Shown here in pieces: positions 3,693 to 38,847 of a stretch of 38,847 bases of DNA. The position numbers and the translations under genes were made by a program. This DNA is from Roseiflexus sp. (lineage in GTDB: Bacteria; Chloroflexota; Chloroflexia; Chloroflexales; Roseiflexaceae). Position 1 is the stretch's first letter. Each line of letters begins with the position of its first letter. The stretch lies in assembly GCA_017743475.1 (NCBI GenBank), contig JAGHYV010000042.1:1-38847 (forward strand). The letters are read 5' to 3'. Below the pieces are notes generated by a model. That model saw only the letters and a list, made by a program, of their open reading frames with translations. It searched no databases and had not been told where the DNA came from.

Positions 3693-4754
3693 TCATGAAG
3701 CTATCTCCCCGCGCGGTAGAATGAGCGTAAACACACTTCCTTTACCGATGCCGGGGCTGGCAGCAGTGATCTCGCCACCCATTGCCCGCGCCAGGTGACG
3801 CGCAATCGTCAGACCGATCCCGCTGCCACCGCTTGCCCGACTTCGCGACGGATCGACGCGGTAGAAACGCTCAAACAGGTAGGGCAATGCTTCGGCAGGG
3901 ATGCCGATGCCGGTGTCCTCAACGACCACCTGCACGTGGGTTGACTCACATCGCACGCGGATCGTGATACTTCCATCTTCCGGTGTGTATTGGATGGCGT
4001 TGCCGATCAGATTTACCAGCACCTGCGCTGTCCGATCCGGATCGGCGTATGCCAGCGCTTCTTCCTCCGGCGCTTCGATCACAACCTGCAGGTACTGTTC
4101 GATCAGTTGCGGTCGCAGTTGCGCGACGATAAGGTGCACCAGCGCCACGACATCGAAGCGTTGTGGCTGGATTGCAACCTGCCCTGCTTCCACGCGCGAG
4201 AGGTGCTGAAGATCATCGACCAGTTTGCGGAGACGCCGCACTTCGTGCTGCATGGCATAGATCGTCTCAGGATCGCCCGGCAGCACGCCGTCGAGCAGTC
4301 CTTCCAGGTACCCTTCCAGACCGGCGAGCGGCGTGCGCAGTTCGTGCGCTACGTTGCCGATCAGGGTAATACGCTGGCGCTCGACCTGCGCCAGCGTCTC
4401 CGCCATCTGATTGAAACTCTGCGCAACGTCACGGAGTTCGTCGGTTAGCGGCGCCGTTACCCGCTCATCGTAGTTCCCGCCAGCGATCCGGCGACTGCTG
4501 GCTGCAAGTTGTTGCAACGGTCGCAGGATTTCGCGCACCAGCAGGATGCTCGTCGTCAGCCCGGCGATTGTCGCTGCCAGCGCCGCCACAACCAGCGCCT
4601 GGATCACTGCCGACTGGAAGACAGGCAACAATGCGGGATCAACTGAACGCGCTGCCAGCGTTTCCGCCGTCACGATCAGGGTAAGGACGCCGACAATCAC
4701 GACAAGCATCTGCGCTGCGATGATCCGCCAGCGGAGTTGGCGCCACAGTCCCAT
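3693..4754 (-). CDS. Membrane sensor histidine kinase
   Basis: A 353-residue two-component kinase. Two membrane segments (about 11-33 and 47-72) are followed by a HAMP linker (about 75-125). The HisKA domain holds phospho-acceptor His137 in VAHELRTP. The HATPase_c domain has the N box (NLIGNAIQYTP), G1 box (DTGIGIP), F box (LFERFYR) and G2 box (GGSGIGLTIA). The periplasmic loop is very short, so it probably senses a membrane signal. The ATG chosen lies one base after the stop of the response-regulator gene; a longer upstream reading frame is a shadow of that gene. Its cognate regulator is frameshifted, so the pathway may be broken. Confidence 0.92.
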   Translation of the reverse strand: MGLWRQLRWRIIAAQMLVVIVGVLTLIVTAETLAARSVDPALLPVFQSAVIQALVVAALAATIAGLTTSILLVREILRPLQQLAASSRRIAGGNYDERVTAPLTDELRDVAQSFNQMAETLAQVERQRITLIGNVAHELRTPLAGLEGYLEGLLDGVLPGDPETIYAMQHEVRRLRKLVDDLQHLSRVEAGQVAIQPQRFDVVALVHLIVAQLRPQLIEQYLQVVIEAPEEEALAYADPDRTAQVLVNLIGNAIQYTPEDGSITIRVRCESTHVQVVVEDTGIGIPAEALPYLFERFYRVDPSRSRASGGSGIGLTIARHLARAMGGEITAASPGIGKGSVFTLILPRGEIAS

Positions 4755-4755
4755 A

Positions 4756-5444
4756 TTACACCGCAGCATCAATGAACTTGTACCCGACGCCACGCACGGT
4801 CTGAATGAGCGGCACGCCGGCGACTGCTTCCAGTTTCCGCCGCACCTGACCGACATAGACGTCCACTACGCGGTCAGTGCCGTAGAAATTGTTGCCCCAC
4901 ACCAGATCGAGGATCTGCTCACGGCTCAACACCCTGCCGCGGCGTCGCGCCAGCGCCAGCAATACGTCGAACTCGGTGGCGGTCAGGTCGATTGCCTGAT
5001 CGCCCACGTAGACTTCACGCCGATCCGGGTCGATCTGCAGGTGCGCAAAGCGCAGGGTGGGGTCGATCATCGGTGATGCGGAACGACGGCGACGCAGAAT
5101 TGCCTCGATGCGCGCAACCAGTTCGCGCGGGCTGAACGGCTTGATCACATAGTCATCGGCGCCGATGCGCAATCCTGCAACCCGGTCGCTTTCTTCGCTC
5201 CGTGCTGTCAGCATGATGATGAAGACGTCCGATTCTGACGGAGGCGTGCAGCCACTTCCATGCCGTCCATTCCCGGCAGGTTGAGATCGAGAATGACCAG
5301 ATCGGGACGCTCACGACGCGCCAGTTCCACCCCCTCCGGTCTGCTATCCGCCGGCAGCACGCGAAAACCTGCCTGTTCAAGATAGGCGCGCACAACGGTG
5401 CGGATGCTGGCTTCGTCCTCAATGATCAGGATTGTGGCGTTCAT
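4756..5444 (-). pseudogene. OmpR-family response regulator, frameshifted
   Basis: Two overlapping frames together make one OmpR/PhoB regulator of about 229 residues. The first (5208-5444) encodes the receiver start: acidic pair DE, phospho-acceptor Asp in LVILDLNLPGMDGMEV. The second (4756-5214) resumes at [16 protein letters not shown] with the conserved Lys in VIKPFSP, then a winged-helix DNA-binding domain (TATEFDVLLALARRRGRVLSREQIL). The switch is needed near 5215-5226, where one base appears missing between Gln of RLRQ and the expected [11 protein letters not shown]. It sits between the AhpD-like gene (26-bp overlap) and the kinase (1-bp gap). A sequencing error is possible and would restore an intact gene. 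Confidence 0.85.
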
Positions 5445-6588: not shown

Positions 6589-6885
6589 GTTTATGGTCCT
6601 TGAACAATTACTCCGCTCTCGTCCGCGCAGGCAGGCTTTGCCTCATGTAGCCGAGGGCTGATGGTCTTTGAAGAAATAATCCGCTCTCGTCCGCGCAGGT
6701 GGGCGTCGCCCTGGAGAGCCAAGGGCTTTAGCTCGACAGCAAGCTCTCCTATCGGGTTATCGTGTATCGGCTATTACTCAGCCCGACGGCAAGCTCTCGT
6801 ATCGGCTATCGGCTATTCCTTAGCCCGACGGCACGAGGCGCATACTGAGATTTATTTCCCGATCTTCATTTTTCTCGCCCGGCGC
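6589..6885. repeat. 68-bp tandem repeat cluster, copy 1
   Basis: The 537-bp gap between the methyltransferase and radical SAM genes has no convincing gene. Two units about 68 bp apart begin ATGGTCYTTGAA, continue with ATTACTCCGCT or ATAATCCGCT, then TCGTCCGCGCAGG, and end GCCGAGGGC or GCCAAGGGC. Degenerate copies of AGCCCGACGGC and CTCGTATCGGCTAT follow, closing with GAGATTTATTTCCCGATC. The same units, in the same order and orientation, recur at 11107-11395. Short palindromes inside each unit (GCCxGCGCAGGCxGGC type) could form hairpins. Confidence 0.8.
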
Positions 6886-7054: not shown

Positions 7055-8029
7055 ATGGCGTGCGTTTTCGGTCCCATCCCTTCGCGGCGGCTTGGACGTT
7101 CACTGGGGGTCGACCCCGTGCCGCTAAAGACCTGCAACTGGAACTGCGTCTACTGTCAGTTGGGACGAACGCGCCCGCTGACCAACGAACGTCGCGTGTA
7201 TGTTCCGCTGCCAGTCATTCTGAGCGAACTCGAACAAGCGCTGGCGACCCGAGCTCCCGATGAGATCGACTGGGTCACGATTGTTGGATCGGGCGAGCCG
7301 ACGTTGCACAGTGAGATTGGGGAACTGATCCGCGCCATCAAGCGCATGACCACGTTGCCGCTCGCTGTCATTACCAACGGCGCGCTCCTCTATTCGCCCG
7401 ACGTGCGGGCAGACCTCTGCGCCGCAGATGCAGTGATGCCGACGTTTTCCGCTGGCTCGGCGTCGGTCTATCGTGCGCTGCACCGTCCGCACCCCGAAAC
7501 GACGTTCGAGCGCCTGCTGGAAGGGTTGGTCGCATTCCGCGCCGAATACCGCGGGAAACTGTGGGTCGAGGTGATGCTGGTGCGTGGTGTGAATGATAGC
7601 GAGGAAGCGTTGCGCGATCTGGCATCGGCGTTGCAGCGTATTCAGCCCGACCGGATCGACATCACGCTGCCAGAGCGTCCTCCGGCTGAGCCCTGGGTCG
7701 AACCGCCCAATGCCGGGGGGTTGATGCGCGCGACGGCGATTCTCGGCGCATCCGCGCACGTGGTCCATCCGGCGGAAGGAAGTTTCGACCTGCGCGGATA
7801 TGCCACGCCAGTTGAAGCGATCCTCGCCATCATCGCGCGCCACCCGATGCATGTCACGGAACTGGAACGCGCACTGACGCGCTGGGCGCCGGATCAGGTT
7901 CATGAGGCACTGCGCACACTCGAAGCGAGTGGTGCAGCCCGGCTGATCGAACGTTACGGTTCACAATTCTGGTGCGCTGCCGATGCCTTCTACGCCCCGG
8001 CTGCGTGCGCAATGATGGACTTGAGTTAA
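7055..8029 (+). CDS. Radical SAM protein (COG0731-like)
   Basis: A 324-residue radical SAM enzyme with the 4Fe-4S motif CNWNCVYC (Cys27, Cys31, Cys34) and a GSGEPTLH motif typical of the COG0731 Fe-S oxidoreductase group. The N-terminal [19 protein letters not shown] is a strong hallmark of that group. The C-terminal part (after about residue 245) looks like a small winged-helix domain ([24 protein letters not shown] region). A GGAGG ribosome-binding site lies 7-11 bases before the ATG. The biochemical role is not established for the family. It stands alone between the repeat cluster and the broken ATPase locus. Confidence 0.88.
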
Positions 8030-8038
8030 TCTCGCCCC

Positions 8039-8068
8039 TTGTCGGTGGCGCGAGCGCCGTGCTATACT
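8039..8068 (+). promoter_or_regulatory. Sigma70-like promoter of the small membrane protein/STAND locus
   Basis: TTGTCG at 8039-8044, an 18-bp spacer and TATACT at 8063-8068 form a plausible sigma70-type promoter. It lies about 180 bases upstream of the small membrane protein gene. Confidence 0.5.
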
Positions 8069-8114
8069 TGCTTCCGGTAACTCAACACCTGCCCCAGGCG
8101 TTAACCTGACAAAG

Positions 8115-8187
8115 GTGTGCACAGACTTGCAGCCGTTGCAGCACACGCTTCTCTGACAGGGTTTGCCCATTGTGGGCGATAACCCGC
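8115..8187 (+). other. Structured 5' leader
   Basis: Between the promoter and the first gene lie two nested inverted repeats. One is GTGTGC (8115-8120) with GCACAC (8141-8146), enclosing a TGCA/TGCA pair. The other is GGGTT-TGCCC with GGGC-GATAACCC (about 8159-8185). They suggest a folded leader. It matches no riboswitch class I recognise. Confidence 0.35.
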
Positions 8188-8251
8188 ATATCCGATTGCC
8201 TTGCCGGGCATTGGCGGCGTGCCCTGCACCGCGAGACGAAAGTGAGCGACT

Positions 8252-8549
8252 ATGACTGACTGGACGCTCTACACCATCACTGGCGCCGCTGCGTTGCTTG
8301 TCATCCTGCTGATCATCTTCGTCGTCAGGGGCAAGATCACGATTGGCGAGATCGAAATCGGCTGGCCCCCCACGATCAAGTTGACGCCGAAGGGCGACGA
8401 CAGTCCACCCGCAGGCAGCAAGGACGAGATCATCGCAAAGAATGAGGGCAAGATTCGGACGCGTCGAGATCGAGGGAGCAGCGCAGGACTTCAGCGCCCT
8501 CGCCGACAAAGGCAAGATCGGCAATGTAAAGGTCAAACGCAAGTTGTAG
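8252..8549 (+). pseudogene. Small membrane protein upstream of STAND ATPase, frameshifted
   Basis: Starts MTDWTLYTITGAAALLVILL, one membrane helix at about residues 9-24, then a short beta-rich tail (GKITIGEIEIGWPPTIKL). After NEGKI one extra T (near 8455) shifts the frame. In the other frame the protein continues GRVEIEGAAQDFSALADKG, then KIGNVKVKRKL, and stops at 8547-8549, 12 bases before the next gene. Without the correction the reading frame runs into the ATPase gene as low-complexity Arg-rich sequence. Function unknown. The GKIGNVxV motif also occurs in the ATPase next door, so the two genes may share a small domain. Confidence 0.65.
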
Positions 8550-8561
8550 CCGGGGCAAGCT

Positions 8562-10930
8562 ATGGCCAGCGCAGCCCTTCCACCCGGATCGTTCTACGGT
8601 CGCGACGCTGAACTTGGCATGGTGAAGCGCCTGATCGAGCAGCGCGTAGGGGGGCAGATCGGCTTTCGCGGCATTGGCGGCATCGGCAAGAGCACCCTGC
8701 TGGCGCAGATCGCCGCCGAAGCGCGGAGACTGGCCGTCACGCCCTGCATCTCTATCGCGCTCGACGACCAGATGACGCCCGAGGGTTTCTACCGGGCGCT
8801 ACTCAACGGTCTGCGCGCCACTGGCAGAACGACCCGACGCCGGGCGCTGTTCTTCAGCGAGGACACCCTGCACCCCTGTGAGACGCTGTTACGGCGTCCG
8901 GAACAGCAGAAGATCTGGCTGAAGAAAAAGATGGGCTGCACCTTACTTCTTCTTCACCTTCTTCTTAAGGGCGCTCAATGGTGGCAAGATCGGAAATGTG
9001 ACGGTCAATCTTGATGAGCAGCCCGGGGTTGAAACCACTGTGCCAATGCCAGATCTGCGCAAGGCATTTGTCGAGCTGGTTGCCTGGCAACTGCCGGAGA
9101 CCGTCACCGTGCCGCCCGGCGTGACCGGCTACCGTCCGGGTCGGCTGCTGGTCCTGCTGGTTGACAACCTGGAACGAGCCAGTTACGACGTGCTGGAGGA
9201 GCTACGCAGCCTGCGCAGCGGCAGCCTGAACGAACGGGTGCTGCTGATCTGCGCGGGCCGCGCCGAGGATCGCCCCGCAAACAGCGCCGCGCCGCACCTG
9301 CTCACCTGCGACCTTGACCGGCTCGACGACGCTTCGTGCCGCGCCTGGCTCACCCGTTCGGGAGTGACCGATCAGGCACTGCGCGAGGCGATCCTCCGCC
9401 TCTGCCAGGGCGTACCGCTGCTGCTGTGGCTGTGCCTGCACGAGGTCGAACAGGCGCGCGCCCAAAGTGAGACGCTGGGGACAGCCGACTTCGCGCTGCC
9501 GCCCCAACCGGGTGGTGAAGCCAGCCTGCACGTGGTCGAGGAGTTTCTGGTCGCGCGCTTCATCGAGCGGCTCGAACGCGGCGGCAAGGAGGGAGAGCGG
9601 TTGAGCCGGCTGGTGCGTTTCGGTTGCGTGCTGCCCAACTTCGCAGATCGCGATGCCATCCGGGCGTTGCAGATCGATGGGTTGCCGGACGACCTCGACC
9701 TGCTCATTCGTGACCTGGGGAACCGGGGCATGATGAGCGGCGAGGAGTTGCACCCGGTCGTTCGCCAGGCTGCCCTGGCCCGGCTGGCCCGGCGCGAACC
9801 GCAGCGCCTCCGCGACTCCTGTGCGCGGGCATTGGCTGACTATGCCAGAAAGGGTCGTCTCGTCGAAGCCCTGAACATCTGGCTCCAGGCGGGCGAGGTG
9901 ATCCCGGATGAGGAGTTCGCGCAGCAGGTGGCGACCAAGGCCCGCTCCGGCGACGTGGCGCTGGCGCGACGGATGGTGGCGGCGGTTGAGCGGTTTGCGC
10001 CGCAGCGGACGGAGCTGGCCTGGACGGCGGCGCTGGCGCGGGTTGACCTAGCCCGGACTACAGGCAAGCGGGATGCAGCGAAGGCGGAGCTGGTACACGC
10101 CATCGTCCTTGCCGGGGAGCAGCCGGAGCGCGTAGCGGCGCTGGAGGAGCGGGTGCGCACCCTGGAGCAGGAACAGCCGCTGCGGAACGGAATGTTGCTG
10201 CGCTGGTGGCTGCCGCGCCAGCCCGACTCGTCCGACGTGCTGCAACGGCTGCTCGACCTGGGCAAGGCGTTCACGAGCGCCTACCAGTATGCCGACGCCA
10301 CCGCACTCCTGGGCAGGCTCTGGCAATGGCGCAGCGTCTGGACGACCGGCGGGGCGCGGCCCACGCCCTCGTGGGTCTGGGGGAGGCGCTGGCAATGCAG
10401 GACTTGTGGCAGGCAGCGCAATTATCAGCAGGCGCTGGACATCTATCGGGCCATTGGCGCCCGGCAGGGGGAGGCCTGCGCCCTCCTGCGTCTGGGGGAG
10501 GCGCTGCTGCGGCAAGCTAAGGTGACGGCGGCGCAGGGGTATTATCAGCAGGCGCTGGACATCGGCGACTGGCAGGGGGAGGCCCGCGCCCTCGTGGGTC
10601 TGGGGGATGCGCTGCTGTGGCAAGCTAAGGTGACGGCGGCGCAGGGGTATTATCAGCAGGCGCTGAACCTCGCTCGAGCCACTGACGACCAGGAGGGGGC
10701 GGCCTACGCCCTCCGGTATCTGGGGGAGGCGCTGCGGCTGCGGGGCGACCGGCAACGGGCAGTGGAGTGTCTTGAAGAGGCCCTGGCCATCGGGTGCCGG
10801 ATTCAGTACCGTGCAGTGCAGCTCAAGGCTGTGGAAACGCTGATCGCGCTGGCTTGAGGAGGCGGGCGACCACAGGTCCGCAGCAGACTACCGCCTGGAG
10901 TATCAGCGCCTGCTGGTCGAGGAGCGCTGA
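8562..10930 (+). pseudogene. STAND/NB-ARC-type ATPase with TPR repeats, multiply frameshifted
   Basis: The N-terminal piece (from ATG 8562) has FYGRDAEL and Walker A GIGGIGKST (residues 37-45). The main piece (from about 8998) has Walker B-like LLVLLVDNLE, a winged-helix-like region, then 36-40-residue TPR units ending YYQQAL. Four breaks are visible: loss of frame between about 8850 and 8998; two compensating shifts near 10312 and 10415, between which the TPR reads RRGAAHALVGLGEAL only in another frame; and one extra T near 10853 that makes a premature stop, beyond which EEAGDHRSAADYRLEYQRLL continues to a stop at 10928-10930. Such STAND proteins are often regulatory or anti-phage sensors. 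It looks dead as sequenced. Confidence 0.8.
10480..10670 (+). repeat. Near-identical TPR-coding direct repeat
   Basis: Two DNA copies 108 bp apart share GGCAAGCTAAGGTGACGGCG and following bases through TATTATCAGCAGGCGCTG with only a few differences. They encode consecutive 36-residue TPR units. The high DNA identity points to recent duplication inside the ATPase gene. Confidence 0.75.
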
Positions 10931-11106
10931 ATCGTGCAGTGCGAGTCCCCGGCGCGGCGACAGGGTGTGGGGTTGAATCTGCTGGATACGTTGAACACTC
11001 TCTTGCAATCACCATTGCGCGCCCCGCGCGGCGACCGACATGCACGTCGGTCGGTAAGAGAAGACATCCGACATCGTCCGTCGTCGGGCGTGACACCGCT
11101 CGTGCG

Positions 11107-11395
11107 GGCAAATGATCTTTAAAGAATTAAGTCCGGTATAGCCTGCGCAGGCGGGCTTCGCCTCGTATAGCCGAGGGCTTATGGTCTTTGAATAAATAAT
11201 CCGCTATAGCCCGCGCAGGCGGGCTTCGCCCCGTATAGCCGAGGGCTTATGGTCTTTGAATAAATAATCCGCTATAGCCCGCGCCGTCGGGCTTCGCCTC
11301 GCCTAGCCGAGGGCTTCAGCCCGACGGCTCGTGCGGAATAGCGGATTTATTTCTCAATCTGAGCCCGACGGCTCGTGCGGAATAGCGGACTTATA
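11107..11395. repeat. 68-bp tandem repeat cluster, copy 2
   Basis: Three units of about 68 bp begin near 11112, 11181 and 11249 with ATGGTCTTTGAATAAATAAT, contain the hairpin AGCCCGCGCAGGCGGGCT, and end GCCGAGGGC. They close with two copies of CCCGACGGCTCGTGCGGAAT at about 11326 and 11362. The stretch 10931-11609 holds no gene I can support beyond this cluster. The cluster matches the one at 6589-6885. Confidence 0.85.
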
Positions 11396-11609
11396 GCAGT
11401 TCTCACAAAGGTTGAACCCAATGGACGGGGTTGAACATTCCCGGAGTCGCGCGCCCCACGCGATGACCGAAATAAATTTCGGTCTACACTCCGCTGGAAG
11501 CGGGCGTCTCGCGCGACGCGGCAGATCCGAACAGGGGTCAACGTATCTGAGACCTGCTATAATGCTCATTGTCGATGTACGAGCGCTCAGCGTTGAGGTC
11601 ACGCCTTGT

Positions 11610-38038: not shown

Positions 38039-38112
<74 letters not shown>

Positions 38113-38162
38113 GGCGCGTTCAGTGGAAGCGGAACGGCGCGGGTCTGGCCTTTGTTTTCCTA

Positions 38163-38801
38163 TCACTTTTCTGCTGCTTCTCTTGTTAAGAATAAGTCTG
38201 CGGATACCGCAGAAGCATCAAGTAGTTCCCATTTCACAAGACGAGAGATAGCGTGGATAACGGATTTGTCTCCATCGATCACGATGCGTCGCCATTCAAC
38301 AGTCCTACCGAGAGCTACATCGAATTTCAGCGTTTCGACTATCGGGAAGTTGGGGTAGATGTCGCTAGCAGATAACGTCCCGCGTCTTTCGAATACATGA
38401 ACGTCACCCCACAGCTCGTCGCTCTCGATACCCCTATATTCATAACCCCCAATTGTAGCCGGGGAATTGATGTTGTTGAGAAATTTGCGACTCAAGTGAG
38501 TGGTATTATTGAGCCACTCGTCGTGAGTTAACGTGGTGGTGATGGCTTGCTGAGTACATTCCACTTTCTCCTCATAGCGTTGACACTCTTCCACTACCCC
38601 ACCAAAACCTGTTCCAACTCGGCTCACTTCGACGCCCTCTTTGGGTTCGGTTTCGCGTGTGCGGTAGTAACGCTCGTATCTGAACCGATTGGGGTCATTC
38701 ACATCAACCCAGTACCTGTCAATGCTGTCGATCGTCAGGTACGGACTTGGATATGGCGGAATACCCTCAAGTTGAAAGTATTCATATTCATAAGACATCA
38801 T
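38163..38801 (-). CDS. Hypothetical cassette protein (about 212 aa)
   Basis: Starts MMSYEYEYFQLEGIPPYPSP, with many Tyr, Glu and Arg residues. There is no signal peptide or membrane segment. A mid-region (ATIGGYEYRGIESDELWGDV) and a C-terminal helical part end in LTREAAEK. ATG could be 38801 or 38798. It precedes attC site E, so it should be the previous cassette in the array. I do not recognise the family. The DNA around its start codon is repeated at 29760-29811. Confidence 0.65.
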   Translation of the reverse strand: MMSYEYEYFQLEGIPPYPSPYLTIDSIDRYWVDVNDPNRFRYERYYRTRETEPKEGVEVSRVGTGFGGVVEECQRYEEKVECTQQAITTTLTHDEWLNNTTHLSRKFLNNINSPATIGGYEYRGIESDELWGDVHVFERRGTLSASDIYPNFPIVETLKFDVALGRTVEWRRIVIDGDKSVIHAISRLVKWELLDASAVSADLFLTREAAEK

Positions 38802-38847
38802 CAAGATTTAGTGATATACTATTTTTGTACAATCTGAAAATGGAGAA
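38794..38847. repeat. Right copy of island-flanking direct repeat
   Basis: GACATCATCAAG, AGTGATATA, an A/T tract and CTGAAAA occur in the same order as at 29760-29811. It covers the start codon and upstream region of the last cassette gene and is cut by the window edge. Confidence 0.6.

Follow-up and report, generated by a model that had tools for sequence, protein, structure and literature searches.

The window, by which we mean the whole 38,847-base stretch analysed here, is contig 23 of assembly G000 (4,972,449 bases in 206 contigs). On its forward strand lie a small gene for a predicted membrane protein and, after a gap of 12 bases, the gene of a STAND ATPase with C-terminal TPRs, both interrupted by changes of reading frame. 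Two relatives served to delimit them. G031 (record CAISPW010000158.1, an uncultured Oscillochloris MAG), from the same order as the window, has a STAND protein of 705 residues; in G076 the STAND gene is a single open frame running to the end of its contig, which covers 633-634 of the 705 residues. The end of the small gene is separated from the STAND start by 11-12 bases in G031, G076 and the window. The features of the locus are as follows.

8252-8549, + strand: small gene encoding one predicted transmembrane helix and a tail with two G-x-I/V-G-x-V-x-I/V repeats, placed by alignments to the G031 and G076 copies
8562-8969, + strand: first segment of the STAND gene, from the ATG to just before the motif insert; 58-59% identity to G031 over ~124 residues
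about 8670-8693, + strand: Walker A, read from the sequence
8920-8971, + strand: poorly matching stretch, seven residues longer than in G031, with a frame change at its end (alignment)
8920-8930 and 8946-8956: arms of an imperfect inverted repeat inside the 8920-8971 stretch
8971-10306, + strand: second frame of the STAND gene, from the motif insert to the first TPR; 47% identity to G031
8980-9009, + strand: motif GGKIGNVTVN in the insert, similar to the repeats of the small-protein tail
about 9145-9165, + strand: Walker B, read from the sequence
about 9409-9417, + strand: GxP, read from the sequence
10309-10407, + strand: TPR stretch out of frame between two shifts that jointly restore the frame (alignment and codon-position GC)
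10408-10854, + strand: remaining TPR units, with the previous frame regained; repeat spacing 108-120 nt
10856-10930, + strand: C-terminus of the original protein, read in a third frame; identity to G031 at 16 of 24 residues

Matches of the G031 protein to the window are spread over three forward frames in tblastn (combined E 9e-152), and frameshift-aware alignment to the same protein detects four shifts of frame within the STAND gene (8562-10930), near 8971, 10308, 10408 and 10856. The original prediction, made from the window alone, had described a STAND ATPase with at least four frame breaks whose ATPase core, TPR units and C-terminus could be recovered in different frames, and it is borne out on both counts; its break points agree with ours to within ~7 bases, and the range it gave for one of them, 8850-8998, includes 8971. 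It had also proposed a comparison with intact relatives. Frameshift-aware alignment of the G031 protein to G076 DNA returned zero frame changes over 633-634 residues; these two relatives are unbroken over this part. A further point, 8455, lies outside the STAND gene: alignment with either the G031 or the G076 query finds one frame change near 8457, in the separate upstream gene. The single-gene span first proposed thus misses the second broken gene of the operon, which was recognised after reading G031. Across the seven segments of both genes, the only in-frame stops are the two proper ends.

The two compensating shifts that had been suspected within one TPR are backed by two further measurements. 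Repeat spacing at the stretch is 115 nt, against 108 and 120 nt for the units that follow, and GC content at the three codon positions of 10309-10407 is [0.48, 0.82, 0.88], against [0.77, 0.47, 0.82] before and [0.80, 0.46, 0.80] after. With low GC at codon position 2 taken as the coding signature, the signature is displaced by one base. Spacing and codon-position GC therefore show the stretch to be out of frame independently of the frameshift-aware alignment. At the first STAND break, an inversion at the hairpin 8920-8956 (arms of 11 nt, 91% complementary) was considered; by eye, the G031 and G076 DNA gave it no clear support.

Whether such breaks reflect decay or faulty sequence depends on how often conserved genes of the same assembly are broken. 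As a collinear sister genome we used G001, a one-contig member of the genus (5,801,598 bases), to which the window flanks align in long collinear stretches at ~89-93% identity. Over 25,479 aligned columns, non-triplet indels fall between listed genes or at gene ends, with one exception at 5234. The protein-level check of the window, covering 23,853 bases of coding sequence, found one clear internal break, at this same point, in a response regulator (4756-5444); this was the only one of the 23 rows listed that was counted, the five other rows with an extra match in another frame (g_25778, g_37675, g_6682, g_30660 and g_30741) having been put down to extended starts of G001 ORFs, to spurious ORFs or to matches between genes. 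In a wider control, 20 stretches of G000 (about 400 kb) were compared with 400 kb of G001, using ORFs of at least 100 residues and best matches at least 75% identical. Among 105 genes (106,749 bases), 4 change frame, one of them twice; all four lie on contig 56, and their comparison is with G001 alone. Together the two checks give a background of 6 breaks in 130.6 kb of coding sequence from conserved genes, or ~0.05 per kb. For the 2.68 kb of the locus ~0.12 breaks would be expected and 5 are observed (Poisson tail 2e-7); the three breaks outside the TPR repeats taken alone give a Poisson tail of 3e-4. Being built on conserved genes, this comparison argues against sequence error of a general kind; it does not argue against a faster decay of accessory genes, which is what we propose here.

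The reading that the operon is in fact intact, and its breaks are indels introduced by sequencing or assembly, has points in its favour. Three of the five shifts look single-base, and two of the breaks fall in similar TPR repeats (units up to 92% alike), where assemblies err; these two may be local misassembly. The response regulator of the same contig (4756-5444, - strand), beside a histidine kinase (3693-4856), is likewise broken by one base and is open in four relatives (G001, G003, G004 and G005). With such a break in a conserved gene, the contig may contain some errors; the break itself is either a sequence error or a loss of the two-component system. Against indel error as the explanation of the locus stand a local break density ~40 times the background of conserved genes in the same assembly, the three breaks outside repeats, and the lack of any long homopolymer near a break (runs of at most 3 within 15 bases). 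We consider it unlikely. Judged on the sequence, general sequence error is a far less likely cause than real decay, which is probably what the locus records, in line with the original view that multiple hits suggested decay and not one error.

A functional role for the breaks, with the gene split into two coupled products or phase-varying, could draw on the 17-base overlap shared by ORFs 8562-9014 and 8998-10857 and on the long frame, open over 644 codons. It is highly improbable: the relatives have one protein of 705 residues (G031) and one open frame to the contig end (G076), a split would put Walker A and Walker B on different products, the breaks have no long simple repeat beside them, and one TPR is out of frame within the long ORF. 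We conclude that the locus is probably an inactivated two-gene operon encoding a small membrane protein and a STAND ATPase with C-terminal TPRs. Both genes carry frame-breaking changes, and neither full product could be made; the loss appears recent, since no internal stop codons have accumulated.

The intact proteins are described here from the relatives. In the STAND protein, Walker A, Walker B and GxP follow in that order and precede the repeats, the arrangement by which a STAND NTPase is recognised. The Walker B and GxP residues are invariant in four aligned rows, and Walker A occurs in each of the three rows that extend over it as well as in the first STAND segment of the window. Profile matches are uneven: the TPRs score above the Pfam cut-off, while matches to the STAND and NB-ARC models of Pfam stay below theirs, as do those to nSTAND6, AAA_16 and NB-ARC for the first segment of the window. 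The protein starts directly at the ATPase part, and family-profile searches of the relatives list neither an effector domain nor a DNA-binding domain. In an AlphaFold2 prediction built with six sequences, much of the ATPase part, where an NTPase fold with a winged helix would be expected, is of low confidence and the TPR part is confident. In PADLOC no system matched, the hits being limited to a generic TPR profile and weak ones at E 0.009 or more; a role as a defence sensor is inferred from the STAND-TPR architecture. For the small protein of G031, AlphaFold2 predicts a helix at residues 3-25 with fair confidence, the rest having pLDDT <50. It matches no Pfam or NCBIfam family (libraries that may not include a Bell model) and no PHROGs entry, and the single match among solved structures has E 0.71.

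The module is rare and patchy, a distribution that fits accessory genes. STAND matches at E up to 1e-15 occur in 5 of 82 genomes of the order and 5 of 158 of the class, both counts taking in G061 and G062, the latter a C-terminal fragment only, at a contig edge. Across the phylum, a sample of 400 genomes, with two candidates scored in each, yielded 9 with matches at E up to 1e-10; the match extends beyond the TPRs in G000, G031 and G076 only and is confined to the TPR part in the other six. Of two scans of genome contigs for relatives, the first gave no match and the second matched G031, G076 and G061 only. For the small protein, a limit of E 1e-4 gives matches in 5 of the 158 genomes of the class, four of which were accepted (G000, G031, G076 and G028), and a limit of 0.001 gives matches in 4 of the 400 from the phylum. 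The fifth class match, in G154 (E 2.3e-5, 45 residues), was rejected as a membrane-segment resemblance, no such gene being seen in its frames. The gene pair is adjacent in both G031 and G076. G028 has two copies of the small gene at contig ends (L050 end, L051 start), one with an in-frame stop, and its module is perhaps repeated and partly decayed. On contig 20 of G061 (L062) there is a further STAND copy, which lacks the motif insert and has one frame change.

Within the genus, the DNA of the locus has one full match among six genomes, the window itself, and G005 has short matches only. The sister genome G001 has no match to the locus as DNA, nor as protein at E up to 1e-15, and carries about 7.5 kb of other genes at the site of window 8005-11550. 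A dispersed repeat of ~150 bases occupies 6591-6744 and 11097-11403; it has many further matches in both G000 and G001, and several of its copies lie at the island edge. Elsewhere in the window, the last 805 bases (38043-38847) are 99.9-100% identical to two pieces of G001 that are separated by about 58 bases in that genome; compared with 89-93% in the other long matches, this suggests a recently moved element, and the ORF it contains has no Pfam match. As to a mobile or viral origin of the module itself, which was considered and set aside, the viral collection yielded no relatives of the module, and the 9 plasmid records that match do so in the TPR region only; PHROGs gave one weak TPR-region match for the STAND protein, and its matches among solved structures are likewise confined to the TPR region.

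The two proteins of the pair appear to have a short motif in common. Two G-x-I/V-G-x-V-x-I repeats follow the membrane helix of the small protein, and the insert between Walker A and Walker B of the STAND protein carries a motif similar to the G-x-I-G-x-V repeats of this tail. In all joint scans of the three known pairs, the part of the STAND protein that matches the tail best is the insert (score 79); the next independent site scores 38 for the last 38 columns, and 54, at the P-loop, for the whole tail. A first joint test set the last 38 tail residues against the STAND protein without its first ~130 residues, starting at the insert, and 1 of 5000 column shuffles reached the score; once the P-loop part was included, the number rose to 25 of 5000 for the last 38 columns and to 52 of 5000 for the whole tail. 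Tests on single pairs are weak (351, 170 and 8 of 2000 shuffles as high), and in G031 the P-loop outscores the insert. These figures come from three pairs that are related and are not independent trials; only these and one counter-example are known. The STAND protein of G061 has no insert, and its genome yielded no small gene. Insert residues 128-150 have a predicted pLDDT under 50, a weak indication given that the same holds for much of the ATPase part. A search for the tail motif in the 82 order genomes gave matches in 40 at E up to 1, convincing only in G000, G031 and G076; no other protein in these genomes was a convincing carrier, the other listed rows having E of 0.08 or more. With these modest statistics, the motif appears to be common to the STAND insert and the tail of its neighbour.

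Since the STAND protein has no detected effector domain, the small membrane protein is the natural candidate effector, and the intact module may be a pair of sensor and membrane effector, a reading to which we give somewhat less than even weight. Alternatively, the intact module could be a transcription or signalling regulator, the small protein merely anchoring the STAND protein to the membrane, which would be compatible with decay. MalT- and AfsR-type regulators belong to the STAND-TPR proteins, and the TPR part matches profiles of such regulators, below cut-off. This alternative, which we hold to be a plausible minority view, sits less well with the lack of any listed DNA-binding domain in the relatives and with a patchy distribution that suits accessory genes.

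The pair can be compared with known systems. According to the parts of PMC8195603 and PMC7159879 available to us, chloroflexi are named among multicellular groups rich in NTP-dependent conflict systems. With NLR-like STAND NTPases the protein shares Walker A, Walker B, GxP and C-terminal TPRs; it differs in that no N-terminal effector was found, that its insert motif appears to be common to the neighbouring gene, and that the window copy is broken. BASS pairs, of a Bell effector and an NLR, are two-gene clusters with a short shared motif, such as the present pair appears to have, and here too an NLR adjoins a candidate membrane effector; in the excerpts of PMC7889193 and PMC8086366 the BASS motif is placed at the effector C-terminus and the NLR N-terminus, the effector usually being a Bell domain. 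Here, by contrast, the motif comes after ~130 residues, inside the ATPase part, and the candidate effector is a lone transmembrane helix in which no Bell, TIR or CHAT domain was found. Because both motif position and effector type differ, we do not class the pair as a BASS member. That RHIM might function from a central position is noted in PMC7889193. The fungal NWD2/HET-S and PNT1/HELLP systems also set an NLR beside a membrane-acting protein with a common motif, and HET-s has two repeats on the effector side, as in the small-protein tail (same excerpt); the small protein differs in having no Pfam match to such motifs or domains, and the position of the NLR motif differs. The portions of PMC12261475, PMC8195603 and PMC7159879 available to us do not describe the present pair.

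If the intact pair does work as sensor and effector, the TPRs would sense a ligand, ATP-dependent oligomerisation would cluster the motif carried in the ATPase insert, and the clustered motif would recruit or template the repeat tail of the membrane protein, which would then act at the membrane. An amyloid-type templating step is improbable in our estimate. We lowered our confidence in the pair model and in templating alike, each slightly, because the wider motif test was weaker. The most far-reaching version takes the intact copies for an NLR signalosome of a new kind in Chloroflexales, in which the insert motif would on activation template a one-helix effector with a two-repeat tail, and has the whole pair being lost in the present strain; it is speculative and we doubt it.

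The broken gene alone would be an ordinary pseudogene, whereas the pair in the relatives offers a modest, testable lead: a small two-gene system in which a STAND protein with no effector domain of its own could act through a single-helix membrane protein. If this is true, the signalling motif of an NLR pair moves from the end of the protein into the ATPase domain, and a very small effector becomes available for study. That it is lost in one lineage would then point to a module that carries a cost or can be done without.
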